From Buxus sempervirens (Eukaryota; Streptophyta; Magnoliopsida; Buxales; Buxaceae): a stretch of 64,000 nucleotides of DNA. How positions within the stretch are numbered: position 1 is the stretch's first letter; each line of letters begins with the position of its first letter. Both the position numbers and the translations under genes were made by a program. The stretch lies in NCBI GenBank assembly GCA_947561395.2, contig OX387195.1, positions 25,187,126-25,251,125 of the forward strand, in the 5' to 3' direction. Below, one piece after another: positions 1 through 62,336 of this stretch. The notes beneath the pieces are model-generated. The model made no database searches, was not told where the DNA came from, and was given only the letters and a program-made list of their open reading frames with translations.

Positions 1-75
1 ATATGTCTGAGGTCAGTGAAATCATTCAAACTGGTTCATGGAATCAGTTGACTCACTTTTGAATTGTTTTAACAG

Positions 76-184
76 CTCGCAGGCACAAATACCAAATCCT
101 GATGATGAAGAGAGGGGCAGGGATCTTGATAGACCAAGACGAGCCCCTCCACCTCCCCGAGGAAAGCCCCCAGGAAGACCTTAA
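76..184 (+). CDS. Small secreted proline/arginine-rich peptide, paralogue 1 (last exon only)
   Basis: This is the 3' exon of the first of three tandem paralogues. It follows an acceptor (TTTTAACAG, ending at 75) and closes at a TAA at 182-184. Entering in the phase used by its paralogues it gives about 36 residues ending in DRPRRAPPPPRGKPPGRP. That tail matches the other two copies at the core D-R-P-R-x-x-P-P-x-P. The signal-peptide exon should lie left of the window, so the start cannot be given. The sequence after the stop has a CATGATTATGGCATCAT stretch resembling the segment after the stop of paralogue 3. I do not recognise the family. Processing to a short C-terminal peptide is an inference from size and composition. 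Confidence 0.6.
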
Positions 185-1584
185 CCGGCCTACTGGTGGT
201 GAGATGAGAGATCACAGGCACGGAGCAGTGCATTTCATGATTATGGCATCATATATAAACTAGCGTGCTTAAGACTAATATTTATGTATTTGATGAATAT
301 ATATCACCTCCCTCCATTGTAAGGTAGATGTTTGCTCATGTATGATGAGTTAGTTAATATATATATTTTAAATGTTTTTAATAGTGATGTAATTGAGAAG
401 TGCAATCGGAAAATATTTTAATAACTGTTTTTACTTTTTTGTTTTAACCTGTTTTACTACATTGAGCTCAAAGCAAAGCAAAGGTTCTAGCTAGGTAAGG
501 GAAATTAAATATCTACGGAAAAGTAAATTTGATGTCCGCAAAGAAGGGAAATCTATTACTGTTATAAAGCAAAGAGAGGGTTTTCCGGTTGATATTTTGC
601 ACCGAAAATGCCCTCCAAATAATCCCGATATTACAATTTTGTTACCCCACATCACCATCATAACCAACTCGATGAAATCGTATATAATTTTGACCTAAAT
701 TGGCCCAATATTGTTTCTCTAAGTGGGCGCTACATAAAAAGCACCAATATTGGGATTGCTCCACATGGAAGAATCTCACTTAAAAAGCAATGCTCCTCTT
801 TGTTTCTAATTTGTTACACGTATAGTGCGTGCATTTGCCTATTTATAAGAATTTAAAATTCTGCTAATATGTTTCAGAAAAATTTAAAACCATAGTAATA
901 TCCAACAAGAAAAAGTAACATATATAGACTGGATTATGATAACCTAAACTGAAGCGAAGTGAAGTGCCCATCGATCCCATAGTGGACTTCTCAGATAGGC
1001 AATCCTGGAACTCAAGAAGGTTAGAAAACAAATTTTATGGATAATTTTAACGGTGGAATGCATTCAGCTTTGGAGCAAACTAAATATCTCTGGCTTCATC
1101 ACCTGCTCAAATTTTTCTTTAAAGTGGATAGTTCCAGCACTATGTATATATGGTTCAAACAGCCTAATTAAAAGTTCTGCGTCACCTGCCCAAATTTTGC
1201 TCTAAATTGGGCAGTTCTAGTATTAGGAATGGTGAACTCAAATGATGTCAATTGTCAGGTCACTACCAAACATAACGAGCCTGATCTGCATAACTTCTTC
1301 AGCTGCTTAAGTTTTCAGTCTATTTGACTTCCAAGCAGTAACAATAACAACTTCCAAACACGAATTCGAGAATGGTTAAAATCTACGGTCCTGTCTGTGT
1401 TTGGAACCTTGGATTTGGGGAGAAAAGAAAAGAAAGCTAAAAAGGAAAAGAAAAATACTGATTTTATTTTCTTTTTTTGATGTTTGGATGAGATGAGAAA
1501 TGAGAAGAAAAAAATATATTTTAGTAAAGATGATGGGGTGGGGTGGTGGGCAGTGGTGCCAAGTGGCAGTGGGTGTGGTGGCAG
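185..1584. other. Spacer between peptide paralogues 1 and 2, no gene seen
   Basis: AT-rich non-coding sequence. It begins with the likely 3' untranslated region of paralogue 1. I see no exon, terminal inverted repeat or RNA gene that I can support. Confidence 0.4.
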
Positions 1585-1770
1585 GAAGTGGCAATGGGTG
1601 GTGGTGGTGGTGGTTGGCGGTGGTCGGTGGTGGTGGCTGGTGGGTGGTGGTGGTGGGCGGTGGTGGTGGGTGGTGGTTGGCGGTGGTGGTGGTCGGTAGT
1701 AGTGGCGGGCGATGGTGGGTTGTGGTGGTAGTGGGTGATGGGTTATGGTGGTGGTCGATGGTGCTAGTGA
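1585..1770. repeat. GGT/TGG-rich simple-sequence tract
   Basis: Degenerate trinucleotide repeat dominated by GGT on the plus strand, with occasional GGC and TCGG interruptions. It opens several spurious reading frames (Gly/Trp/Val-rich on plus, His/Pro/Thr-rich on minus). No splice sites or gene context support translation. It lies about 0.8 kb upstream of peptide paralogue 2. Confidence 0.8.
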
Positions 1771-2384
1771 TGGGATGGGTGAGTGGCGTGAATAGTGATA
1801 AGTGATGGTAAATTTTATTTTTTTTCAAAATTCCTACCTTTTTGGAAAAAAAATTTTTCACATTGGAAAGAAAGAGGAAAGAAAACTTAGAGAGAGAGGG
1901 AAAACTTTTGATAGTCAATTATGTTGTGATTAGCTTGCAACATTTGAAATATTTAGAATAATCCTCAAGATGACCAGTTTATCCCATCTCAAATCAAGCC
2001 CCATGGAGGATACTTTTGAAAGCATGAATAATTAATTTCATGATTTAATATCAGGCGATCTCATATTCATATTGGCTCCAACACAACCCAACTGATCGAA
2101 AGCTTTGGATTAATGACCATCATCTTCCATTTGACATCTCTGTTAGGCCAAGTAGCTACTTAAAAACCAACCCCTTCAAATGCAAGAACGCAAATGCACC
2201 ACTGGGTATAACTATAAATATAAATATTTCAACTTGTAAATGAAACAGTACACATGTGACGACCAGAAGTTTCCCGTTAGATTAATTCAAATATATTTTT
2301 CAGGGTCAAAGAGATAATTATTTTAACCCCATTAACGCAAATTCAATGGGTTGATTGGGTGTTGTACAACGTGGATCTGATAGA

Positions 2385-2420
2385 AGTCTGAAAGCATCTG
2401 GAGTAGGTTTTGATTTGGTC
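2385..2420 (+). promoter_or_regulatory. Conserved upstream block of peptide gene 2
   Basis: A 32-base block starting AGTCTGAAAGCATCT and continuing to TAGGTTTTGATTT recurs at 4065-4096 with only two mismatches. Its first base lies 183 bases before the ATG here and 156 bases before it in paralogue 3. The flanks are much less alike. A TATA-like run (TATATATAAG, about 2465-2474) lies between the block and the ATG. A shared regulatory role is inferred; it could simply be duplicated sequence that has not yet diverged. Confidence 0.5.
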
Positions 2421-2567
2421 GCTCAAGCACCGCTTAATACGAAAGTAAAACCGTGTGAGACAATATATATATAAGGGCGAATTACGATCCTACAGGAGAG
2501 AAGCTAGTACTTGTGCAACACAAATATCCTTAAAAGTCCCGCAGGCGAGTGAGATTTCTGATCAAAG

Positions 2568-2885
2568 ATGGGGTTGATGTGGCTACTTCTGCGCCTATGT
2601 TGCCTCATCCTTCTCCTCTCTCATCTCACTACTTGTCAAAGGTGAGTTGAATCATAATACCTCGATCATGCAGTAGTACTGTTGATCTACTTTAAATCCC
2701 AAGTGTTTTGTTTCAATATATTGGATTAATTGTGTTGGCTGACACATTTGGAATTATTTAACAGCGATCTGCAAACACCAGTTACACCACCACCGCCAAA
2801 GAGGGAAGAAGTTTGGGGCAAGAGCAAAGATAGGCCAAGACCAGGCCCTCCATCTCCAGGAGGAAGGCACCCAATACGTCCATAG
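2568..2885 (+). CDS. Small secreted proline/arginine-rich peptide, paralogue 2
   Basis: Exons 2568..2641 and 2765..2885, phase-consistent, 64 residues. Exon 1 is almost entirely a signal peptide: MGLMWLLLRLCCLILLLSHL, then TTCQ, with the intron just after the likely cleavage region. Exon 2 encodes a short charged, proline-rich tail ending DRPRPGPPSPGGRHPIRP before TAG. The intron is GTGAG...ACAG. No cysteine framework remains after cleavage, so this is not a defensin or RALF type. Proline and basic residues recall hydroxyproline-rich or post-translationally modified signalling peptides (CEP, PIP, systemin-like), but the sequence fits none of those signatures. The first ATG of exon 1 was chosen because its paralogue starts at the same place. 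Function unknown; an apoplastic signalling or antimicrobial role is inference. Confidence 0.72.
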
Positions 2886-3465
2886 GCGCAATGGTTCATA
2901 CAATACTCATGAAATCATAAAAGGGATGCTTAGGATTTGAGTTTTTTTTTTTCCCCCTTTTTCTGCAAGATAATGGGATCGTGTAATGCAAATATGCAGA
3001 TGTTTTAACAGTACTGAAATACCTCAAGACAGTTGAGGCTAAGTGTATAGTAAGGCTTGTATCCATTTATTGACTCAATATAAGTCACATATATAACAAG
3101 CATTGAACTGGTACAAAAGAGAGAGAGAAGAATACGCAAAACCTCAAAACTGCTACCGCAATGAACAATGAGTTATGAAGCAAAGTCACTCTACATGGCA
3201 GGAGGCAAGAGCTTACCGCGTCCAAGCAGAGCACTGCTTATCATGGCAAACTTGAACGCTGTGTCATCTGTGTCTCTAACCAAGACTGAAAACCCTTCCC
3301 ACCAAAGACATTAGTCGGGTACACGTGTAGTATTGCACATTTGCACGTATAAAGAAAGGGATAAAAATGAGGGGAAACGGTTTCACAACTTATTTTTAAG
3401 TTTTTAAAAAATTGAGACACTTTTGACTACTGTACCCCTATATTAATAGATCTTTACAATGATGT

Positions 3466-3806
3466 GTAGGTTTGTTTAAAAAAGTTCACATTTTGGTTGG
3501 CACGGTTCTCAAGGGACACAAGGCATTATGTATAGTTTAAGATTAAAGAAACTTGAAAAAGGGAGTTATTCCACATTCTTTGAAAAAGGCGTTATGTATA
3601 GTCCTTTTTTTGGTAACATTTTTTTTAAAGAATGTGGAATAACTCCCTTTTTCAAGTTTCGTTAATCTTTTTTTTGGTAACATTTTTTTTAAAGAATGTG
3701 GAATAACTCCCTTTTTCAAGTTTCGTTAATCTTAAACTATACATAACGCCTAGTGTCCCTTGAGAACCGTGCCAACCAAAATGTGAACTTTTTTAAACAA
3801 ATCTAC
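3466..3806. mobile_element. Foldback MITE with long inverted arms
   Basis: The left arm (3466 to about 3587, beginning GTAGGTTTGTTTAAAAAAG) is repeated inverted at about 3680-3806, with arms of roughly 120 bases and few mismatches. The centre holds a direct duplication of about 60 bases (TTTTTGGTAACATTTTTTTT followed by part of the arm). It has no coding capacity. It lies between peptide paralogues 2 and 3. I could not settle the target duplication, so the superfamily is open. Confidence 0.65.
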
Positions 3807-4064
3807 CGTTATGTATAGTCAAGTCAATGCGTTTATTATGTGTTCATCAAGGTAGCTGATTAATGGTCTTTTTTTTTTTTTTTTATGGGAAAGAAGAAAT
3901 ATTATAAATATTAAGAGTTATTCCGGTACAAATCTTGAATGAGTCCTACCCAAAAAATCATCCGAAACCAGCCTTCTTATACTATCTGGAATGTGAGTCT
4001 TCCACAAGCAAGGGAATTTATGGGGAAGCCAATTCTGTTGCGGACGGCTTGGAGCATGATTAAC

Positions 4065-4096
4065 AGTCTGAAAGCATCTCGATTAGGTTTTGATTT
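4065..4096 (+). promoter_or_regulatory. Conserved upstream block of peptide gene 3
   Basis: Second copy of the block at 2385-2420: same AGTCTGAAAGCATCT start and TAGGTTTTGATTT end, 30 of 32 bases identical. It begins 156 bases before the ATG of paralogue 3. Confidence 0.5.
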
Positions 4097-4220
4097 ACCA
4101 CTCCATTAATTGCCCAGCTTCTGCTTTCAGATCACTCTGTAAATACCAATCAGTGTAAGACGGTTTAAGATCAAAGAAAAGTGAGAGAACTGTTTGTGCG
4201 ACGTAATTCTCAGACGAAAG

Positions 4221-4520
4221 ATGGAGTTGTTGCCGCTACTTCTCCGCATATGTTGCCTCATCCTTCTCCTCTCTCATGTCACTTGTCAGAGGTGAGTTTA
4301 ATTAAAAAAACTTCTCACAGACCCTCCTGAGCTTTTAACTCCCAAGGGTTTTGGTTCTATATCTGGGGTTCTGATTTCTCTTACACTTGTAATTCCTTGT
4401 AACAGAGATCCGCCTACATTACCAAAGGTTCCTGATAGGGGCAGGGGCAAAGATAGGCCAAGGCCAGCCCCTCCATCTCCCGCAGGAGGGCGCCCAAGAC
4501 GACCATCGCCTACCCAGTAA
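4221..4520 (+). CDS. Small secreted proline/arginine-rich peptide, paralogue 3
   Basis: Exons 4221..4291 and 4406..4520, phase-consistent, 61 residues. Exon 1 gives the signal peptide MELLPLLLRICCLILLLSHV then TCQ, nearly identical to paralogue 2 (shared CCLILLLSH). Exon 2 gives a short Pro/Arg/Lys-rich tail including GKDRPRPAPPSPAGGRP, ending SPTQ before TAA. The G-K-(S)-K-D-R-P-R-P-x-P-P-S-P core is the best conserved part of exon 2, as expected if it is the mature peptide. The tail is longer than in paralogue 2 and ends differently, so the exact C-terminus seems free to vary. Not assigned to a named family; secretion is supported by sequence, function is not. Confidence 0.72.
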
Positions 4521-15027: not shown

Positions 15028-18000
15028 TCATCTGGAAGTAGGTTGTGGAAACTTGCTAAAAGTAGACTTAATAAGACCAAAGAAGAAAGCGAACCGTGAA
15101 GAAAACAAAACCGGCAAACATGCAGCTGCATAAAGTGGGTAAGCTGCGTATTTCAGGTTATCTTTGACTACGAAGAAATGACCAGAACAGAAAGTGATCA
15201 TCATGGCAACAATAGAGATGAAGAGACAGCCCAGACCAATCATAAACTTATTCGGCAAGTCGCTGGCAAAGTCCTTCGCTCTGTACCGGGATGTAAGAGT
15301 GGCCAGAAACATGATCAGAGAGGTCACCGAGAAGCACAAAGCCAGTAGTGAAGTGATGGCAAAGAGGCTAAAAGCAGGCTGGCCTTCGAGCGTTGGCGTC
15401 CCATATTCTTCCTTAACCCCTCCTGGCACGGTGGACGACGAGGTAAAAGCCACAGTTGCAATGAGCGCAGCCATCAACGAGCACGACTGTGAAGTATTGT
15501 TTAGCCATTGGACTCCCTCCTTGACCAAATCCTTGTGTGTTTCATTGAATACCTCCTTAGGGGTCAGGCCTTTTGTGTTGTAACGAACAAAGTAGTGTCG
15601 GGGCATAGAATATTTAACAAACTGCATCATATCATCAAGCATAGATTGTTAGTTAAATCTTCAAAAACCAATTATTCAACCTCAACACCATATTTCTGTA
15701 ACCGCGTACAACTATTGGAGATTGTATGTCGGGCTACAAGTAAATCTAGATAGTTCTTAACGGATTCTAATTTAGGCTCAGAAATTGGCCCAGCTGATTT
15801 TCTATAAATTTTGGGCTTTTGAATTCTAACAAATTGAGGAGGCTATTTGAAAACTTAAAATTCGTACAATCAACGGCTGATTTTCTATAACCACATACAG
15901 CTATTTGAAAACTTAAAATTCTGTAACCAAATGATTTTCTATAAATGTTGGGCTTTTGAATTCTGACAAATTGAGGAGGCTATCAAGAGATAAAGGGCTA
16001 ACCTTGTACCATTTGACTTCCCATTGCATTTGTAAGGCTGCGCCTGGAGTTCGCCATGGCTTATGCTTTCCTAGTGTCGCCGCTAGATGCAAGGCACTGT
16101 TGCCTTGATTATCCAATTTACGAAATACGCTTTCCTTTAGGAAACGATCCTGTAAAAGCATGTATACGTGGGGTTGTCGGTTCTCCACTGCCAAAAGCAC
16201 CACATTCTTCTCATCTAAATCTGAATCGCGGATCGCCAATGGAAACATGTTGAGGATTTTCTCCACCATTTCTATCACCCCGTACTTTGCTGCAAGTAAT
16301 AAAGGCGTCTCCCTCTTCCCTGTCTCATTCTCTGTCTCAATATACTAAAGGTCACTCTAGGCAAAGCAGCTTTTTAAGCAGTACGTATATGCACGGGCTT
16401 CCAAATGAGGGGATAGGAGGAAATATATAATAATAAAAATGATGGAGAAGACAACATTCACAATTTTACCTTCTTTCTCCCATACAGAAGTTTTTTCAAG
16501 CATTTGATCCATGACCCGAATCGCCCATTCGTGTTTTTCTTTCTTATCTTGAATCTTTTGCGCCCTTATAGATCCTGCACACACAAACACATAAACAATT
16601 CTGATCGATCCTCATATACCCAAAACAGTGGAATAAGACGCTAAACCACATGACCAAGTAATCCGAATTCTAGATTTTGTTGTTACAAACCTAATCCGAG
16701 TACAATATTTAACAAGCCCTTCATTACAAGCTTGAAGAAGAAGAGCAAGGTTTCATAATTGGGCGGAACCAGTCCGGATCTTTGCGGCTTGAGATTTGGA
16801 TCTTTTGCAGCTGTAGACAAGATTGGAGCCAGAGATTAGTAAAGATGCAAAGAATTATTTGAGTTTTAACACTTAATTGTGTAATTAAGAGTAATCTCTT
16901 AGTGGCTGGACCGTGCATTTTACGGTTGAGGGGACCACTCTAGTTCAAAATGGTTCAAATCACCTACGAACAACCAAGGGGAAACATAAAAATTTCCAGA
17001 TCACATGTTTTTTCACAGCTTCACACCTAGATTTTACTAGGTCATCCTCATAATCAAATTGGAACACTGGGAAACAAAATGTTGAGATGATCGGTTCGCA
17101 GTTCAACCAGGGTCATGTCTTGTATTAAAAATACTGATACTTGCATGTAGGTGCAATGGCTGTAAAGAAAGATGAAATGAACTGTGGGGATTGGGATCCT
17201 CACTCTATACTTACGTTTACATGATCTGATCTGTGTTGCATTGGATGACTCTCCTTCATGAAGTTGAGCACTAGTTGGATAGGGTCCTCCAGGACCACAA
17301 AATGAGCTTTTAGCAATGAGCAAGAAGAGGATCGACAAAGACATAATTGGCAATTTTAAAATGGATTAATTTCAATTTTAAAATGTATGTCAAGAAATCT
17401 TCACCTTGAGAGCCATCGCGACTCACTTTGTTAGGATTCTCTACATCTGGTGGATTGCCATTATTTTTTCCACCTCGAACTGGGAAACAAAAAGTAGCCC
17501 GTTAGAACCCTTTCACAGATTTCAATTGAACAAAGTTACTCTGTTATAGCTGTGAATTAATGGTTCTGCCCTAGAATACAATTACACCCAGAAAATCTAA
17601 CGGGATTATTTAGATACCGTAACATTTCAATGGAAGAAATCCCAGAAAATTACCTAGCACCTTGATAGTATTCATCGGCAACAGAAATAAGTTTACTATC
17701 AACTTAAAAACTGTCAACTTAATAATCATCATCAGCAACCAAAAGAAGTTCTCACAGGTTCTGTAGTTATCTGGATATTTAGAGCTGCGTTTGTCTTCTG
17801 AATCGTCCTCGTAATCCTCTTTGCTAAGTGTTTCCTCCGCAAGCGGGTCAACGAACACGCCTAGAATGTGACAATCGGAGATATATAATATGTGATAAAT
17901 AAAAAAACACGACAATAGCATGTTACTCTCCATGTTAAATGGAGCTGAAAAGTATTCGAACCCGATTCCAGTCTCGATTTACTTTTCATAAATGAAGTGA

Positions 18001-20013
18001 GTAGCAAGAGAACGGTACATGGCTAGCTTTTCATTTAGCTAGCCACCTGTTCTGGGATTCTTACTGCGGTAGATGATTTGGTCGTAAATTCCAAGGCGAC
18101 TACCGCTTTTGAAAGCAGATGGCTTAGTGGCAAGAACATGGAGAGCGGTTTGTCCTTTATTATTCTTCCAGTCAACAAGACCTTCGTACAGGTTAATTAT
18201 ATGATAAGCCAAGCCTGTAAATTAACCACGGAATGAATGATGAGCTCAAGAACATGTCCGTCCACGTAAATAAGATGGAATTATGCTCACCGAAGTAATC
18301 TCCAAAGATGGCACAGTGAAGAATGGTATCCCCATCGCTCAACCTTGTACAGTAGGAGCAGCCTGCAATACAATACTTTGGGGACTGTTCATGGAGGCAA
18401 AGAAAAGCTTTTGTTTTGCCATTTAGGACAGCCAAGAACAGAGGCGTCTCGTCGTCATGGTTGCGGGCACCGATAAGCTGGGGATATTTCTCGGGGATGC
18501 ACTTGCACATGGCAACCGTTCCCAGTGCTGCTGCTAGATGAAGAGGAGTGTTTCCTCTCTCATCCTTTGTACTCAGAGCTTTGTACTCGTTATTGGGCGG
18601 AAGTAGTCCCACCAGCTGCCGAACGAGATCAACTTTGGCGTCTGAAACCGCGATGTGTAAAGCTGTCTCGCCGTCATGGTTGCAGGTTCCGATAAGTTCG
18701 GGATCTCTCTGGGCGATGTAGCTGCACATGTCATCCATTCCTAGTGCTACTGCTAGATGAAGAAGAGTGTTTCCTCTCTTATTACCTGCACTCAGAACTT
18801 CGTGCACGTTATCGGGCGGAATTAGCCCCACCAGCTGCTGAACAAGATCAACTTTGGCGTCTGAAAGCGCGATGTGTAAAACTGTCTCGCCATCACGGTT
18901 GCGGGTTCCGATAAGTTTGGGATCTCTCTTGACGATGTAGCTGCACATGGCATCCATTCCCAGTGCTACTGCTAGATGAAGAAGAGTGTTTCCTCTCCTA
19001 TTACCTGCACTCAGAACTTCGTACACGTTATCGGGCGGAATTAGCACCACCAGCTGCCGAACGAGATCAACTTTGGCGTCTGAAAGCGCGATGTGTAAAG
19101 CTGTCTCGTGGTCATGGTTGCGGGTTCCGATAAGTTTGGGATCTCTCTCGACGATGCAGCTGCACATGTCATCCATTCCCAGTTCTACTGCTAGATGAAG
19201 AAGAGTGTTTCCTCTCTTATTACCTGCACTCAGAACTTCGTACGTGTTTTTGGGCGGAATTAGCCCCACCAGCTGCCAAACGAGATCAACTTTGGCGTCT
19301 GAAAGCGCGATGTGTAAAGCTGTCTCGCCGTCATGGTTGCGGGTTCCGATAAGTTTGGGATCTCTCTCGACGATGCAGCTGCACATGTCATCCATTCCCA
19401 GTTCTACTGCTAGATGAAGAAGAGTGTTTCCTCTCTTATTACCTGCACTCAGAACTCCGTACGTGTTTTCGGGCGGAATTAGCCCCACCAGCTGCCGAAC
19501 GAGATCAACTTTGGCGTCTGAAAGCGCGATGTGTAAAGCTGTCTCGCCGTCATGGTTGCGGGTAATGATAAGATTGGGATATCTCTTGGCGATGCAGTAG
19601 CACATGGCAACCGTTCCCAGTGCTGCTGCTAGATGAAGAGGAGTGTTTCCTCTCTCATTCTTTGCATGCAGAACTTCGTACACGTTATGGCGTGGAATTA
19701 GCCCCACCAGCTGCTGAACGACATCAACTTTGCCCTCCGAGACAGCGATGTGAAGAGGAGTGTTTCCTCTCTCATTCTCTGCACGCAGAACTCTGTTCAC
19801 GTTCTCGTCGGGGATTAGCTCCACCAGCTGCTGAACGACATCAACATTGCCCTCTGAAACCGCGATGTGTAAAGCTGTGTCTCCTGACATGGTGATCTTG
19901 GTGTCTTGAGCCTCGGGGTTCTGCTCAAAGATCTCCACCACCTTTTGCCAATTGCCATTGATGACTTGCCTCCGCAGGGATTCAGAGTCCATTTCTTCTA
20001 TTGGCTCACCCAT
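15028..20013 (-). CDS. Ankyrin-repeat PGG-domain membrane protein (ACD6-like)
   Basis: Nine exons, complement of 18291..20013, 18047..18214, 17654..17860, 17405..17479, 17215..17286, 16691..16810, 16470..16574, 16003..16331 and 15028..15621; GT-AG throughout and phase-consistent, 1130 residues. Residues 1 to about 570 are ankyrin repeats ([40 protein letters not shown]). A variable acidic linker follows, then a helical segment ([20 protein letters not shown]), two further ankyrin units ([26 protein letters not shown]) and a C-terminal PGG domain with about four membrane helices (PGG at about 998-1000). This architecture is the ACCELERATED CELL DEATH 6 / ITN1 class of plasma-membrane or ER proteins linked to salicylic-acid immunity and cell death. 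The small linker exons 4 and 5 are the least certain. The ankyrin region is unusually uniform (see the 219-bp array). Confidence 0.87.
15795..16000. repeat. Direct duplication inside intron 8 of the ACD6-like gene
   Basis: TGATTTTCTATAAATT...GGGCTTTTGAATTC and AAATTGAGGAGGCTAT occur at about 15795-15847 and again at about 15932-15983, with a third partial copy (CTGATTTTCTATAAC) between. The period is about 137 bases. The second copy ends next to the exon 8 donor. Confidence 0.65.
18500..19720 (-). repeat. 219-bp tandem ankyrin-coding array
   Basis: The string CTGCTAGATGAAGAAGAGTG recurs at about 18750, 18969, 19188 and 19407, exactly 219 bases apart, with more diverged units at both ends. 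Each unit is 73 codons and contains two ankyrin repeats. Neighbouring units differ by only a few bases while the frame is kept, which indicates recent unequal exchange or gene conversion within exon 1 of the ACD6-like gene. Confidence 0.88.
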
Positions 20014-23000
20014 CGAATGTGGTTGATTTTGGGTTGAAGTACTGGATGTGAATGGCTGTAACTGTTATTTATTGTAGGCTGTTTCCCACTTCTCAACCAA
20101 GCCTCAACTGTGCAGAAAATAACCTCGTCGTACACCACGTGACTTGCGAACCTAGTTTGAGTGTATTCTTGTGGGTATGACAAGCAAGTCTTGTAGTTTC
20201 TTGTTCTATTTAAACAGTAATGTAAAGGGATAGCAACGTATGGAATGCCTAATATTTTATTTGGGTTTGTTATTAAAAGAGAGTTTCCTCTTTAAACAAA
20301 CTACTTCCTTCTCCATCGTTATCTCCATTCGTCGTAATTACGTCCAAACCCTGTTCACCCTTTCTCTTCTGTCAAAATAAATAAATAAGGGAAGACTGCT
20401 ACAGTTGGGTTTGTACCATTTATTTTTTTCTAAATTTAAATAAAAGGTTCTTGCATTTTATCAAGGACTAGCTGCAATTTTTCACAAAAGAGAAAATTGA
20501 TTTTAAGGAAGTGTAAGTGAGGCGTGGAGCATCACACATCCACTGTTTGTCTTTTTAAAGAAAATTCCAAACCGAGAAGGAGTAATTAGTAATTCCCACG
20601 TATTTGTGGGATCCATGTATTCAATGGGCCTTCATTGTAAGACAACCAACCAACGCAACGTATTCAATGGGCCTTCATTGTAAGACAACCAACGCGGCGT
20701 ATTCAATGAGCTGGGCCTTCATTGTAAGACAACCAACTCGGCGTATTCAATGGGACTTCGCATATTCAATGGGACTTAAAGACTCTTTTCTATGGAAAAG
20801 TTGAAATTATTTCGTGCAATAATGAGGGCAAAACGCGTACAACTGAGCTTCTTACTGTTTTGTTTGCCCGCTTCGAAGCTTCATTTTCACTTCAAAGTAG
20901 GCACAAGCAAAAGTAATACGCGACTATGAACAGCCGGGGATATGTTCCAATTTCCAAAAGCAAGGATATGTCTGGACTCCATAAAATTCCTCTTATAATT
21001 GAGCTATAATACGTATAACATGGATAATTACGTCAACTCATTACCAGACACTAGCGCCGTGTGTGTAGATAAAAATTCTGGGACATGTAAGGCATAAGGA
21101 ATTGTTGAGGGTCACTTTTAGAAATTGAAAAAAATGAGAAAGACAAAGTTACCCATATAAATATATAAGGCAAAATGTCATTAGAAGGTTATTTTAGGAA
21201 AAAAATTTCAATTAGTTTGGCATGCTTCCCAAGGGGCACCTTGGGTTATATATAGCATAGAGCACAAATCGTATAGATATGCTCTTGCACATGGTAACTA
21301 TGAAATTAAAATACACCAATAATCTGTCTATTTTTTTCATAGCTCGTCAAAAGAATATAGTTTCCCTTGACAATAAAATACTCTGAAATTTTCGTGCTAC
21401 GATAACTAATATTAACAATCAATAATAATTTACACTAGGAAAAATATAAAGAAAAAATTTTGAGTATTTATAGAACATACTATTCTATTTGAAATTATAT
21501 GTACATCAAGTTAAGTTCTAATAAATTTCTTCATTTCATTCATTAAAAATCATTGGATTAGTTTTGACAATTAAACTTTAACTAATTCATGCGAAACTTA
21601 ATTTTATTAGTTAGGCTTTCGTTCCTAACTTTATTCAGTAATGTAAAATTTATTTAGTAATTCTAGTATAAAATTTCTAGAATAAGGCGTTTACAAACCA
21701 AAAAAGAAAAAAGAAAAAAGGAAAAAAAATCAAATCTTTAGTTCTAAAAATTCAAATATGTTGCGTATCGATATTAAGATCATGTTCAAGCATTGAGTGC
21801 ATTCTACTTGGGGGAATATTCATGAAAAAGACTGAATTAATTAGATAATTTATGATCATATGATTATCATATCCACCTTTTTTTTTTCTTTTTTTTTTTT
21901 TGGACTTTGATCTCACATTTCCAAGAGCTTTATACCATCTAAAAGTACATAGTACGTGAAATCTCTAAACTCAAAGAGCAAGATGATAATGAGCATATTT
22001 AATCCCTTCATTAAGCCTCATCAAATGGAAGTAGGTTCCTATCATATTCAGGAGTAACATACCACAATCCAGTGCCTACTCAAACTTATATTTCAATAAA
22101 TTCCAACTCTCATCTGTTTAATGCAAAAGTCTACATACAATTTGCCTAGTGCTTTACAAGTGAACCAATTATTAAGAAATGGATATAATCAGAATTATTA
22201 TCCATCTTTGTCATCACAGTTTATCAGTAAATTGTGAACAATCAACATTTTCACATAGACATGTATTATTAAAAAATGGATATAATCTGAGTGTGAAGTC
22301 AACATTTTTCCAGACCTTCAAGCTTCAAAACCTTCTAATTAAATATCTCAATCAACTTCATGCAGCATACTGTAACGCATTCTTTTAGAAATGTATGTAA
22401 CGCATTCTTGTAGATATGTACATACTTAGCAGACATGGGTATACACAAACACACTGTTAATATTTGTTTATATGCAGTAGTTGTGAAAATATAATTAACC
22501 TTAATTAATTGTCTCCATTCTTTCCTTACCCACAAGTTCTTTATCCCCATTTGGCTCTTCACTTTTCTCTTGAAACTTCATATCTTCTTGTACGATATTT
22601 CAACACTTCCAGAGCAACACTCCTGGCAAGGCCTAGCAGAAAACCTAGCTTCTAGGATTAATCCCGATGTGACGGATGTAATAAATCTATCTTATGTATA
22701 TAGCCAATTATACGATAGCAAAAATAGTGAGCTATACACTAAAGCACTCGAGATTATCACAGTATGGGAACCTCTGTAATTCTCGTCTCTACGATCAGTG
22801 CCTCTTTGTGGTAATTCTATTTTTCCGGTACCCAATTGGATTTTAATATCATCATAATAAGTATAATTTGGATCACTTTAGCGTTGATATTCTACACAAG
22901 ACTCCATAAGTTTAAGTGGCATAATTTTTTTTCCAGAAATTTTTTTATCAATTCCTTTCCATTGGGTGTGACAGTAGCACTTGGACCACCATCTCCACCA

Positions 23001-26207: not shown

Positions 26208-26458
26208 ATGCGATCACAAAGCAAATATTCAGCAAACTGGATTTATTTTTATCTAAGACCTAAAAAGAAAAAAAAGGAATCTTTTCGTGGGCATCTAAAA
26301 TCATAGCTCTGGATAGATTTAATAAAACAATTTGATTTTGTGGAATCTTTGAATATAATTCAATTGCAGAACAAAATTATCTGCAGAGAATCTATACGGC
26401 AGGAAAAAAGGGAGCCTTTTTGAGTGATCGCTCTGAGTTACTTTGTCCGAAAATATGA

Positions 26459-26912
26459 CCAATTCATCCAAAAGCAAGTGAATCACTTCAGAAAATCTAT
26501 CTATCAGGGAAGCATATCGTCTGCAGCAAAACCCTAGATGTAGATCATAAGCATGTGACACTAATTTATACTTGGGCAGTCACTAATGCTGGAATTCTTG
26601 ATCTTGCAAACAAGTGGGAGCTGAAGAATCTTTGCCTCCGTATACCCATTTGCTTGAGGTTTGCGTCGCCCTTGTGAGTCTGTTACCAATTCATCCAAAA
26701 GCAAGTGAATCACTTCAGAAAATCTATCTATCAGGGAAGCATATCGTCTGCAACAAAACCCTAGATGTAGATCATAAGCAGGTGACACTAATTTATACTT
26801 GGGCAGTCACTAATGCTGGAATTCTTGATCTTGCAAACAGCTGGGAGCTGAAGAATCTTTGCCTCCGTATACCCATTTGCTTGAGGGTTTGCGTCGCCCT
26901 TGTGAGTCTGTT
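26459..26912. repeat. 227-bp tandem duplication inside the captured nsLTP segment
   Basis: Copy A 26459-26685 and copy B 26686 to about 26912 start CCAATTCATCCAAAAGCAAG and differ at only a few bases. The unit includes the C-terminal coding part of the nsLTP fragment and its following sequence, so the duplication happened during or after capture. Confidence 0.88.
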
Positions 26913-27165
26913 GAATAACATAACACAAGCAAACTGGGTCTTTGTTCCTCGTATCGGTTGCAGCAGTGCAGCACTCTATTAAAGGCGATTCTTTCTTCTC
27001 GATGACAAAGTTTAGACACATCCCCACCTTTCCAACCACGCTGCCACACCTTTGTTCCAAGGAACCCGAGGCATCATTTGCCGCAGCAGCACATATGGCT
27101 GAATAGCAAATACACGAAATAAGAAGAAAAACCAAGAAAGGAGATTGGATTCTTGTCTCAACCAT
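26788..27165 (-). pseudogene. Non-specific lipid-transfer protein (type G-like) captured in the Pack-MULE
   Basis: The ORF starts with a signal peptide (MVETRIQSPFLVFLLISCIC) and shows the eight-cysteine motif C-X9-C-X14-CC-X12-C-L-C-X29-C-X9-C (QRC, GMC, ECC, VCLC, VCK, DCP). This is the framework of GPI-anchored or xylogen-type lipid-transfer proteins, secreted proteins that move cuticular or membrane lipids. The frame ends at a TAG just after DCPSIN. One base away the frame continues LVSPAYD, matching the usual L-x-P tail, so a one-base frameshift truncates it. The Ser/Pro linker and GPI signal are missing, and the 3' part is duplicated (26459-26912). It could still express a short secreted eight-cysteine protein. 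I call it a captured fragment because of its position between the MULE ends. Confidence 0.75.
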
Positions 27166-27623
27166 CTTTAGTCCTTCACCGGATCTCTCCGTTTCTCTCT
27201 GGCTTGAATACCCTCAAGAAAGAAAGAAAGAAGCAGATGAGAGAAGAGACAACTTTACTCTTTTAAGAGAAAAAGATCAACGTGGAGACGGTAGTGGGGA
27301 TCGAAGGGTGGAGTACGGTTGCAAGGCTGTCTCAATCTTAAATGTGGCTATGCAGTTAGGTGGAGATGTCTCTTGTTGCAGGCGAACCCTTTGGGGAGGA
27401 AGAGGTTCACTTGGAGGAGAAAAGGTCAAGTGAGGGTTTTTACAATAGAAGGGCAATTTGGTCTTTAAATTTGGTAAAGTTAACACCGTTGCTCTCTAAC
27501 TGACGGCAAGGGTATCAAGTGATGGTTTCGAAAAGCTTAGGAGCTATAAGTGATTATTTTTAAACCACAGGGGATGTTCGTGCCCTTTCGCCAAACCTCA
27601 AGGGGTGTTACTGTAAATTTCCC

Positions 27624-43078: not shown

Positions 43079-44317
43079 ATGGGAAAGCCTCATCTTAATC
43101 CAGCCCTTTGGGGCCTATTCATCTCCTTTTTCTTCTTCTTCTTTAAACCTTCAAACCAAGCATCCCCACCTCTCCCAAACCAGAGACTCCTAAATGCCTA
43201 CACAGCACTTCAAGCATGGAAACATGTAATCCTATCAGACCCCAGTAGCCAAACGTCAAATTGGTACGGCCTGGATGTCTGCAACTACACCGGCGTCTAC
43301 TGTGCACCTGCACCAGATGATCCTCACATAATCACAGTCGCCGGAATTGACCTGAACCATGGAAACATCTCTGGTTCGTTGCCGGAGGAGCTCGGCCTCC
43401 TCACCGATCTTTCTCTCTTCCACATCAACTCCAATCTTTTCTGCGGAACCATCCCACAAAGCTTCCGTAATCTTCGCCTTCTTCATGAGCTCGACGTCAG
43501 TAACAACCAGTTCTCCGGTCAGTTCCCTTCGGTCGTCCTCTGTCTTCCTTCACTCAAGTTTCTCGACATCCGATACAATCAGTTCGAGGGAAACATCCCC
43601 GATCGCCTGTTCGATTTGAATCTCGATGCGATCTTTATAAACAACAATAGATTTCGATGCTCCGTGCCCAAAAACATCGGCAACTCTAATGTTTCAGTAC
43701 TCGTCCTAGCCAATAATGAGCTGAACGGTTGCCTGCCTTCGAGTATAACAAAAATGGGGGAAACCCTACAAGAGATTATTCTCTTGAACGCTGGTCTTAC
43801 ATCGTGTCTGCCGCCGGAGATTGGGTTGTTGAAGAGCGTAACGGTTTTTGATGTCGGCTTTAACAAGCTGGTGGGACCGTTACCGGAAACAATGGGACAA
43901 ATGAAGAGCTTGGAGCAGTTGAACGTGGCGCACAACCAGCTTTCCGGTGAGATCCCGGAGAGTATATGTTCATTGCCGAACTTGGAGAATTTCACGTATT
44001 CGGACAATTACTTCTGCCGAGCACCACCAACATGTCTGAAACTACCAGATAAGGACGACAGGCAGAATTGTATTCCAGGTCGGCCATTGCAGCGGTCTGC
44101 CGATGAATGTGCGTCGTTCCTTTTGCGTCCTGTACACTGCAGTAATGAATTTGGCTGTTCGCCACCACCTCCTCCTCCTCCTCCTCCGCCACCACCACCA
44201 CCACCTCCTCCTCCTCCTCCTCCTCCTCCTCCGCCACCACCACCTCCTCCTGGCTGTTCGCCACCACCACCATCACCTCCTCCTCCTCCGCCAGCTGCTT
44301 ATTACTACCATCCATGA
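43079..44317 (+). CDS. Leucine-rich repeat extensin-like protein (LRX6/7-like)
   Basis: Single-exon gene, 412 residues. A hydrophobic N-terminal signal (LFISFFFFFF) precedes the LRX N-terminal domain (LLNAYTALQAWKHVILSDPS, NWYGLDVCNYTGVYCAP). About ten leucine-rich repeats follow (GSLPEELGLLTDLSLFHINS, LHELDVSNNQFSGQFP, LEQLNVAHNQLSGEIPESIC), then a Cys-rich hinge (PPTCLKLPDKDDRQNC, ADECASF) and a proline-rich C-terminus. LRX proteins sit in the cell wall, bind RALF peptides and coordinate wall expansion with FERONIA-type receptors. The extensin part is odd: a pure run of 30 prolines (44162-44251), a short second block and an AAYYYHP tail. It lacks the repeated Ser-Pro4 and cross-linking Tyr motifs of long LRX members, so covalent wall insertion is less certain. 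The first ATG was chosen since the signal follows directly. Confidence 0.9.
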   Translation: MGKPHLNPALWGLFISFFFFFFKPSNQASPPLPNQRLLNAYTALQAWKHVILSDPSSQTSNWYGLDVCNYTGVYCAPAPDDPHIITVAGIDLNHGNISGSLPEELGLLTDLSLFHINSNLFCGTIPQSFRNLRLLHELDVSNNQFSGQFPSVVLCLPSLKFLDIRYNQFEGNIPDRLFDLNLDAIFINNNRFRCSVPKNIGNSNVSVLVLANNELNGCLPSSITKMGETLQEIILLNAGLTSCLPPEIGLLKSVTVFDVGFNKLVGPLPETMGQMKSLEQLNVAHNQLSGEIPESICSLPNLENFTYSDNYFCRAPPTCLKLPDKDDRQNCIPGRPLQRSADECASFLLRPVHCSNEFGCSPPPPPPPPPPPPPPPPPPPPPPPPPPPPPPGCSPPPPSPPPPPPAAYYYHP

Positions 44318-49252: not shown

Positions 49253-51466
49253 TGAAAAACAGGGTTTTGACTCTAAATACACCTAGAGGGGGGTGAATAG
49301 GTGAAGCACAGCGGAATAAAATTCTACTAATTAAAAACAAGTTCTTAATTAATAGGCATGCACAAGTCTTGATCAATTAATAACCAATCACATAAAATTG
49401 CAAATAAAGTAAAGAGACAACACAAGCAATTTTGGTGACGAAGGGAAAACTCTATGAGAACTCTCACTATCAGACAGGGTAGCATTCATTGCTTTCCCAC
49501 TTCCCTTACCTTTCAATTTCTTGTAAGTAGGACATTCAGCTCTTATGTGGCCAAACCCTTGGCAACCATGACACTTTACCTGCTGAGTTGTGTTTTCATG
49601 AATGTCTTTGGTTTCCCTAGGTTCTTTCCAAAATTTCCTCTCCTTGCTAGAAGTCCCCCTAGACCATTTATTGCCCTTTTTGTTTTTCCTAATCTTAAAC
49701 ATCTTTCTAAAACTCTTCACAAATTGGGCAATCTCCTCATCATCCACCTCATCATCAGACTCATTAAAAGTCTTTCCTTTCATGGCTCTAAGAGCAATGG
49801 ATTTGCTCTTTTTGGTTTGAGGTAAGGTAAGCTCATAGGTTTGAATTGATCCTATTAGGTCTTCAACCCTAATTTTGTCAATGTCTTTGCTTTCCTCTAT
49901 GGCTGTTACCTTGGGTATAAACCTCTCAGGGAGAGACCTAAGGATTTTTCTCACAACTCTGTTTGGAGGAATTTTGTCACCAAGGTTGAAACTAGAATTC
50001 ACTATGTCACTGAGTTTGGCATAAAACTCATCAAAGGGTTCATCCTCTCCCATCTTCAATTCTTCAAACCTAGTGATGAGCATCTGTAACTTAGAATTCT
50101 TCACGAGGACAGTTCCTTCATGAGTGGTTTCCAGAATTTCCCAAATTTCTTTACCGGTTTGACAAGTGGACACCCGTTTGAACTCATCAACAGAAATTGC
50201 ACTAAAGAGTGCATTGACACCTTTACTATTGTGGTTGACTTCAATTAACTCTTCCCTAGTGTATTGGCTTGGGTCTTTGGGTTTAATCTCACCATCTATG
50301 GTAATAGTGGGTGGAGACCATCCTCTCTCAACACTTCCCCAAACCCTTTCATCAATAGCCTTAAGATAGGCTCTCATACGAACTTTCCAATATGCATAAT
50401 TACCACCATCAAAGAAGGGTGGGGCAGAGGAAGACTTGTCCATGACTAACAGAGTCAAGGATCTGGTTACCCGCTCCGATACCAATTGAAAAACAGGGTT
50501 TTGACTCTAACAACACCTAGAGGGGGGTGAATAGGTGTAGCACAGCGGAATAAAATTTTTCTATCAATTAAAGACAAGTCCTTAATTAATAGGCATGAAC
50601 AAATCCTCAAGGTAATTCCAGAAATCAAATAACTAATCAAAAGCAATTAACAAGCCACCCAAATTGCAAGCAAATAATTAAAGCATGTAAAGTAAGACAA
50701 AACAAGCAATTTGGTGACGAAGGGAAAACTCTATGAGAACTCTCACTAGAGAAAAACCCTCCGGGCTATGCAGGAGCCACCTAAAAGATCCAATATGAAA
50801 AGAAGACTTACAACCTGTAGTTCAGACGACTCAACATCCCTATGCTAGACTCTGCAACTCACAGACTTGAAAGTATCTGAGGAACTCCTCAGATTTGCTC
50901 CACAGCAACACTTCAGAACTCTGAAGATCTTCTCACACGATCACCCAAACGAACTCACCTGGTATCCGTAGGAACTCCCACGATCAATCTCTCCAACCCG
51001 GAACTCCAAGGTAGAGGAAGGAAGAAGAAAAGAAAGGTTTTATGGCTCAAAAGATGAAAACCTAGAATAAGGGTTTTCATAAGAGAAAAGGATATTTAGG
51101 GCTTCTAAAACGTAGCTCTCTTAGGTTTAGAAGGTCCCTAATCTTATTTAAAGGTTCCCCAAAAAGTTTGAAGTCAATCCGAATTGAAACGAGTAAGTTA
51201 TGTAATTTTTCGTAACTTTTCGGAAATTTTGCTGTTTGAACGTTCGAACGCTCAGCAAACGTTCAGCAAACGTTGCTCTCCAGAAATTGAACGTTCGAAC
51301 GGACAGAGAACGTTGATCAAACGTTGGGCATAACTTCTTCAATTTGACTCCGATTTTGACGCCGTTTGAACCATGTCTTCTTGGACTCAACCTAAACATT
51401 CTAAACACACTTAAACACATTCTTTTTGACACTGAATTAAGCCAAACTAAATTATTAAACCTTACA
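49253..51466 (-). mobile_element. Deleted Copia retrotransposon (intact 5' LTR, gag only, truncated 3' LTR)
   Basis: Minus-strand element bounded by GTTAT on both sides (49248-49252 and 51467-51471). The 5' LTR is 50487..51466 (980 bases, TG...CA on its own strand). Two bases inward is a primer-binding site TGGTATCGGAGC (50473-50484, minus), one base off the usual TGGTATCAGAGC that pairs with initiator methionine tRNA. Gag follows. The 3' LTR survives only as its last part, 49253 to about 49469 (shared landmarks CAGGGTTTTGACTCTAA, GAGGGGGGTGAATAGGTG), directly fused to gag, so protease, integrase, RT, RNase H and most of the 3' LTR are deleted. Confidence 0.88.
49388..50443 (-). CDS. Copia gag polyprotein fragment
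   Basis: Starts MDKSSSAPPFFDGGNYAYWK (the ATG at 50443 is preferred over an in-frame one 14 codons upstream that lies next to the primer-binding site). It then shows the UBN2/gag-polypeptide domain (GKEIWEILETTHEGT, LITRFEELKMGEDEPFDEFY, ILRSLPERFIPKV), a basic stretch and a zinc knuckle CHGCQGFGHIRAEC (C-X2-C-X4-H-X4-C). About 350 residues. The last roughly 25 residues after SDSESSH come from the fused 3' LTR. The gag has no internal stop, but the element cannot move by itself. Confidence 0.88.
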   Translation of the reverse strand: MDKSSSAPPFFDGGNYAYWKVRMRAYLKAIDERVWGSVERGWSPPTITIDGEIKPKDPSQYTREELIEVNHNSKGVNALFSAISVDEFKRVSTCQTGKEIWEILETTHEGTVLVKNSKLQMLITRFEELKMGEDEPFDEFYAKLSDIVNSSFNLGDKIPPNRVVRKILRSLPERFIPKVTAIEESKDIDKIRVEDLIGSIQTYELTLPQTKKSKSIALRAMKGKTFNESDDEVDDEEIAQFVKSFRKMFKIRKNKKGNKWSRGTSSKERKFWKEPRETKDIHENTTQQVKCHGCQGFGHIRAECPTYKKLKGKGSGKAMNATLSDSESSHRVFPSSPKLLVLSLYFICNFM

Positions 51467-62247: not shown

Positions 62248-62336
62248 GTGGGATGCTATACGTGGTACATGCCCTTGGATATAATCTTTAATGGGATGCT
62301 ACACGTGGCACATGCCCTTGGATATAATCTTTAATG
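62248..62336. repeat. Two-copy tandem repeat, about 45-base unit
   Basis: GTGGGATGCTATACGTGGTA and ATGGGATGCTACACGTGGCA each continue CATGCCCTTGGATATAATC, then TTTAAT. Confidence 0.9.

Follow-up and report, generated by a model that had tools for sequence, protein, structure and literature searches.

The stretch analyzed here, 64,000 nucleotides of Buxus sempervirens (assembly GCA_947561395.2, contig OX387195.1, positions 25,187,126 to 25,251,125 of the forward strand; hereafter, the window), carries at its left end a cluster of three head-to-tail genes at about 1–184, 2568–2885, and 4221–4520 (+ strand). To judge from sequence, the cluster probably constitutes a new family among the small secreted peptides of plants, unlike any family compared. 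The best explanation, put forward tentatively, is that of tandemly duplicated tiny two-exon genes encoding secreted prepropeptides—phytocytokine-like, with a released peptide that would act on neighboring cells.

Gene models and encoded peptides

Gene 2 extends from an ATG at 2568 to a stop codon at 2883–2885 and encodes a product of 64 residues, MGLMWLLLRLCCLILLLSHLTTCQSDLQTPVTPPPPKREEVWGKSKDRPRPGPPSPGGRHPIRP. Gene 3 extends from an ATG at 4221 to a stop codon at 4518–4520 and encodes a product of 61 residues, MELLPLLLRICCLILLLSHVTCQRDPPTLPKVPDRGRGKDRPRPAPPSPAGGRPRRPSPTQ. Both are interrupted by a phase-2 GT–AG intron with a GTGAGT donor and an AACAG acceptor. The donor of gene 2 lies after 2641 (CAAAG/GTGAGT, the slash marking the junction) and its acceptor before 2765 (TTTAACAG/C); the donor of gene 3 lies after 4291 (CAGAG/GTGAGT) and its acceptor before 4406 (TGTAACAG/A). 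Exon 2 of gene 1 starts at 76 (TTTTAACAG/C), ends with a stop codon at 182–184, and yields SSQAQIPNPDDEERGRDLDRPRRAPPPPRGKPPGRP, the first Ser of which stems from the codon split with exon 1. The start codon of gene 2 is preceded by an in-frame TGA 9 nucleotides (nt) upstream and has A at −3 and G at +4. Shifting the gene 3 acceptor by one base (exon 2 from 4407) breaks the frame, and this variant was rejected. The coordinates, frames, and splice sites of the three two-exon genes, as given in an earlier note on this DNA, all check out, and the translations agree with its assignment of exon 1 to a signal-peptide-like leader (genes 2 and 3) and of exon 2 to a Pro/Arg tail. tRNA and Rfam scans returned no match. 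The features of the cluster are as follows:

1..11, + strand: probable 3′ end of gene 1 exon 1, tentative (paralogue alignment)
12..75, + strand: gene 1 intron with inferred donor, GTCAGT...TTTTAACAG, 64 nt (paralogue alignment)
76..184, + strand: gene 1 exon 2 including stop, S-SQAQIPNPDDEERGRDLDRPRRAPPPPRGKPPGRP-stop (translation, tblastn against genes 2 and 3)
2568..2641, + strand: gene 2 exon 1, signal-peptide-like MGLMWLLLRLCCLILLLSHLTTCQ-S (translation, hydropathy)
2642..2764, + strand: gene 2 intron, phase 2, GTGAGT...TTTAACAG, 123 nt (splice sites)
2765..2885, + strand: gene 2 exon 2 including stop, Pro/Arg tail ...KSKDRPRPGPPSPGGRHPIRP-stop (translation)
4221..4291, + strand: gene 3 exon 1, signal-peptide-like MELLPLLLRICCLILLLSHVTCQ-R (translation, hydropathy)
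4292..4405, + strand: gene 3 intron, phase 2, GTGAGT...TGTAACAG, 114 nt (splice sites)
4406..4520, + strand: gene 3 exon 2 including stop, tail RDPPTLPKVPDRGRGKDRPRPAPPSPAGGRPRRPSPTQ-stop (translation)

The leader of genes 2 and 3 is hydrophobic, with a hydropathy of up to 2.9 in windows of 11 residues. The tails encoded by exon 2 of the three genes comprise 36–40 residues, are rich in Pro and Arg, and lack cysteine. Their Pro content amounts to 28, 30, and 32% and their net charge to +2, +4, and +7 (His not counted); a PRP motif occurs in the tails of genes 2 and 3 and is missing in gene 1. Close to the C-terminus, all three tails feature the core D-R-P-R-x-x-P-P-x-P that the earlier note had named—its sequence, though, varies between the copies (DRPRRAPPPP, DRPRPGPPSP, and DRPRPAPPSP), and the positions invariant over all three read D-R-P-R..PP.P.G..P.RP. 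Between leader and core lies a short spacer that is variable and contains acidic residues. The proportion of nonsynonymous differences between genes 2 and 3 is 0.117 in the leader, 0.124 in the core, and 0.419 in the spacer. The precursors hence have the general layout of plant secreted signaling peptides: a short length (61 and 64 residues), a leader-like N-terminus, a variable region, and a cysteine-free C-terminal core. Short Pro-rich tails of this kind are expected to be disordered.

Gene 1 is cut by the left edge of the window. Its leader lies beyond that edge together with the rest of exon 1, so the cluster extends to the left, as had been suspected. Bases 1–75 align with the end of exon 1 and the intron of gene 2 at a score of 42 (shuffle mean 22.5; equaled by 0 of 2000 shuffles), and more weakly with the counterpart in gene 3 (score 27; reached by 90 of 2000 shuffles). 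Placed ungapped on the splice registers at 2631 and 4281, bases 1–32 match at 21/32 and 22/32 positions; a match of at least 21/32 occurs at 2 of 63,892 plus-strand positions, a range that includes these two registers themselves. The window therefore probably includes the donor of gene 1 and the final 11 bases of exon 1 (codons ATA TGT CTG AG, giving I-C-L-S when the split codon is counted), the intron again being in phase 2. This assignment is tentative because an intron of 64 nt is short.

Paralogy, conservation, and upstream elements

The gene 2 and gene 3 proteins share 67% identity. In a tblastn search of the window, run without filters and without composition correction, this pair was found at E-values of 2e-13 to 6e-13, and matches of gene 1 to the two other genes had E-values of 3.8e-7 to 1.7e-5; a fourth copy was not evident within the 64 kb. 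Gene 3 also matches the poly-Pro tract of an LRX gene at 1.4e-4, which indicates that the E-values are flattered by composition, and the tails were therefore compared against composition shuffles. The tail-to-tail scores were reached by 0 of 2000 shuffles for genes 2 and 3, by 1 of 2000 for genes 1 and 3, and by 3 of 2000 for genes 1 and 2.

At the DNA level, genes 2 and 3 share 63 of 71 aligned columns in exon 1, 79 of 100 in exon 2, and 82 of 112 in the intron. In the flanks, identity is about that of shuffled sequence, with 48/90 columns over the 100 bases preceding the ATG and 179/271 over 300 bases downstream. The exons differ in length by 3 nt in exon 1 and by a net 18 nt in exon 2—both multiples of three, with the indels of exon 2 placed by the DNA alignment as 4, 11, and 3—and five of the six intron indels are 2 nt long. 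Neutral simulations of this one pair, with observed rates and without indels, keep the ATG, the splice dinucleotides, and the frame in only 5.4% or 2.4% of cases.

Amid the diverged upstream sequence of genes 2 and 3, one block of 32 bp survives and is a candidate regulatory element. A scan of both strands of the window that allowed up to 8 mismatches gave no third copy. Matches to the W-box and similar short motifs upstream are not counted as evidence. The upstream features are the following:

2385..2416, + strand: 32-bp conserved block of gene 2, −183 to −152 (30/32 identical to 4065–4096)
4065..4096, + strand: 32-bp conserved block of gene 3, −156 to −125 (counterpart of 2385–2416)
2464..2475, + strand: TATA-box-like TATATATATAAG of gene 2, at about −104 (sequence match only)

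The intergenic DNA has features of its own. Between genes 1 and 2 lies a low-complexity GGT-rich tract (1553–1763). Between genes 2 and 3 lies an inverted repeat (3466–3594 and 3678–3806) with arms of 129 nt that are 94% complementary and 83 nt apart, overlapped by a 64-nt direct duplication (3605–3733). The inverted repeat looks like a miniature inverted-repeat transposable element or hairpin element and could be a source of small RNAs.

Relatives were searched for in several collections. None of the three peptides matched Pfam at E-values up to 10, and gene 3 as query matched no PDB sequence. In the protein collection, a profile of genes 2 and 3 gave 16 candidates, none of them at E ≤ 1, and a profile of all three genes gave 40, none at E ≤ 10. 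Viral and prokaryote contigs, where no relative was expected, returned 82, 441, and 253 pattern matches and no relative. Among the titles and abstract openings of open-licence PMC papers, queried mostly with general terms, a family with this core was likewise not found. As a control, the LRR-extensin-like protein of the window gave 991 matches at E ≤ 1e-20; among the matches listed (120 of 991), the named ones come from many plant families and the top identity is 75%, so the protein collection covers many plants but probably contains no close relative of the source species. Since unannotated two-exon genes would also be missing from protein collections, the absence of matches is weak evidence of novelty.

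Proposed signaling peptides and rival explanations

In the proposed mechanism, exon 1 would encode a signal peptide that is cut off in the endoplasmic reticulum, and exon 2 would provide a variable acidic spacer and a basic Pro-rich C-terminal end. The prolines of the core would be hydroxylated and possibly arabinosylated, an apoplastic protease would cut near the acidic/basic D-R-P boundary, and the freed peptide of about 17–21 residues would act on neighboring cells via a surface receptor, as SCOOPs do. Gene anatomy, paralogy, open frames, the leader-like N-terminus of two genes, the C-terminal core, and the upstream block form the direct basis of this explanation; secretion, hydroxylation, cleavage, receptor, and a role in stress are inferred, the steps of the mechanism from families such as PROSCOOP. 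The peptides may be signals or defense peptides. Of the undescribed hormone or defense family that the earlier note had considered, the distinct, secreted-peptide-like tandem family stands, and a hormone or defense role is a possibility.

The core of SCOOP peptides is Ser-rich with an SxS motif, which is absent from the three tails as judged by eye on the translations. In organization, the cluster comes closest to PROSCOOP, and its character is probably phytocytokine-like, by analogy. According to the part of the PROSCOOP report used here (PMC6382344), the family comprises 14 Arabidopsis genes, arranged in tandem and each with two or three exons, that encode 72–117 residues with a signal peptide and no cysteine; two members were unannotated and none was detected outside Brassicaceae. 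Shared with the Buxus cluster are the small secreted precursor, the few exons, the tandem arrangement, the lack of cysteine, and the missing annotation (PMC6382344), as well as a lineage restriction, which is putative for the Buxus cluster. Unlike SCOOP, the family described here has a Pro/Arg core near the C-terminus instead of a Ser-rich one and a shorter precursor (61–64 versus 72–117 residues in that report). Plant genes commonly carry the signal peptide on exon 1 and the mature peptide on exon 2, a layout that escapes gene finders (PMC3924332).

The PIP/PIPL and IDA/IDL families are characterized by SGPS together with GxGH or (R/K)(R/K)HN, and CEP peptides by a C-terminal SPG(I/V)GH motif, as far as the excerpt of PMC4526919 goes. 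PIP/PIPL and IDA/IDL resemble the Buxus peptides in their short precursor with signal peptide, variable region, and Pro-containing C-terminal core (PMC4526919). Unlike them, the cluster features a phase-2 intron (genes 2 and 3, probably gene 1), whereas the Arabidopsis PIP/PIPL and IDA/IDL genes are described in that excerpt as intronless (PMC4526919). In a motif scan, the PIP/PIPL SGPS core with C-terminal GxGH, the IDA/IDL SGPS followed by (R/K)(R/K)HN, and the CEP motif were each found in 0 of 3 tails; the likeness to CEP consists of the Pro-rich C-terminal core and, in gene 2 only, of SPGGRH. The CLE core reads P-x-G-P-[DN]-P, and the Tyr-sulfated type of PSK, PSY, and RGF is marked by Asp-Tyr. 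Both the CLE core and DY were likewise found in 0 of 3 tails. None of these peptide types thus lends its motif to the tails, in agreement with the remark of the earlier note that the core does not resemble modified signaling peptides in sequence.

Several observations weigh against a functional signaling family. The dN/dS comparison between paralogues, which had been suggested as a check, gave ratios of 0.65–1.03 and does not clearly signal purifying selection: Genes 2 and 3 have a ratio of 0.80 (leader 1.02, spacer 0.70, core 0.65; Nei–Gojobori), and gene 1 has 1.03 against gene 3 (25 codons) and 0.97 against gene 2 (18 codons). There is little sign of amino acids, rather than DNA, being kept; because the sites are few (synonymous 12–46), the ratios neither prove nor exclude selection. 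The inferred intron of gene 1 is very short for a plant, a TATA-like box lies near the start only in gene 2—the nearest one in gene 3 being at −318—and no homologue was found outside the window in the protein, viral-contig, or prokaryote-contig searches.

The strongest rival, though itself unlikely, is a plant peptide of the proline-rich antimicrobial peptide (PrAMP) kind: The secreted basic Pro/Arg tail would act on microbes, perhaps entering bacteria like the PrAMPs of insects and mammals. Box 1 of PMC7736402, the part of the source used here, gives as sequence criteria at least 25% Pro and a net charge of at least +1, with PRP as indicative, and as essential ones antimicrobial action and DnaK or the 70S ribosome as target. 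The Pro content and charge of all three tails lie within these limits, and the tails are Arg-rich with PRP in two of three (PMC7736402). Against nine known PrAMPs, the summed score of the gene 3 tail was reached by 18 of 1000 shuffles, which is marginal; for gene 1 the count is 277 and for gene 2 it is 88. The best single match was reached by 644 of 1000 shuffles for gene 1, 284 for gene 2, and 386 for gene 3 and is thus no better than expected from composition. The likeness is therefore mostly one of composition. Moreover, prolines in a plant context are likely hydroxylated, unlike those of animal PrAMPs.

Among plant peptides, BnPRP1 is reported, in the portion of PMC4575134 used, as the first plant Pro-rich antimicrobial peptide, with PPT repeats and a restriction to Brassicaceae; its net charge is given as neutral (PMC7736402). 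Ma1 and Ma2 are Arg/Pro-rich candidacidal fragments of a banana protein, obtained via database search according to the text consulted (PMC10044544). The Buxus tails share with them that they are short Pro-rich plant peptides (PMC4575134, PMC10044544). They differ from BnPRP1 by being cationic and of PRP type and from Ma1/Ma2, to go by the description of the latter (PMC10044544), by having genes of their own. A lineage-restricted cationic PRP-type family that has converged on animal PrAMPs with their ribosome or DnaK target, or a dual hydroxylated signal and antimicrobial, is rather improbable.

Descent from the SGP-rich hormone superfamily, as diverged CEP, PIP, or IDA members with a core degraded from SPGxGH or SGPS, has a slim chance. 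It draws on gene 2, where RPRPGPPSPGGRH matches a CEP string of 13 residues at 6/13 positions (129 of 5000 shuffles), SPGVGH at 4/6 (154 of 5000), and a PIP-like string of 9 residues at 5/9 (289 of 5000). However, the likeness does not extend to genes 1 and 3, for which at least 1019 of 5000 shuffles attain the best match to each string; S[GAV]PS, GxGH, SPG[IV]GH, [RK][RK]HN, and the CLE core are absent from all three tails; and the Arabidopsis PIP/PIPL and IDA/IDL genes are, in the excerpt cited, intronless (PMC4526919).

A structural rather than a signaling role, as small hydroxyproline-rich peptides of the cell-wall or arabinogalactan type, is just as improbable. The peptides are predicted to be secreted, are Pro-rich and basic, and in genes 1 and 2 have PPPP runs that would lend themselves to O-arabinosylation of hydroxyproline, also after Ala, as stated in the passage used of PMC8012813. 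Yet, according to the translations, the three tails lack Tyr, Ser-Pro3+ runs, and repeats, measure only 36–40 residues, and keep the order of the core residues between copies. Finally, decaying or non-functional tandem duplicates with frames open by chance would account for dN/dS near 1 and the lack of a homologue in the protein collection but deserve little credence, as each of the three genes has an open frame and its splice sites, the neutral simulations seldom preserve such a gene (2.4–5.4%, one pair), and decay has affected the intron and flanks but spared the exons and one upstream block.

Genomic setting and meaning

The seven further open reading frames (ORFs) of the window that were scanned comprise LRR, ankyrin-repeat, PGG-domain, DUF568, LTP-like, and copia-type gag ORFs and one without family; this gene content marks the window as plant DNA. 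The LRR protein at 43079–44317 is the LRR-extensin-like control mentioned above. The ankyrin-repeat ORF (18193–20064, − strand; 623 residues), which we take to be ACD6-like, contains a 219-bp unit in 5.9 tandem copies at 18446–19732 (90% matches), and the PGG-domain ORF (15028–15648, − strand) is located near it. Two tandem copies of a 227-bp unit (26458–26912, 97% matches) overlap the 3′ end of the LTP-like ORF (26788–27213, − strand). The copia-type gag ORF (49388–50506, − strand) encodes 372 residues, and a tandem pair of 43-bp repeats with 95% matches is found at 62249–62336.

If expressed, the cluster would add a secreted-peptide family with a core outside PIP, IDA, CEP, CLE, Tyr-sulfated peptides, and SCOOP. 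With only two exons, neither much longer than about 120 bases, such genes easily escape standard annotation and peptide catalogues. Synthetic peptides could serve as probes for orphan receptor kinases. In addition, the cationic tails—with PRP in two of three copies—offer a test for animal-like proline-rich antimicrobials in plants; if the convergence on PrAMPs were true, this would be a dedicated plant gene family with the positive charge that the class calls for and that BnPRP1 lacks.

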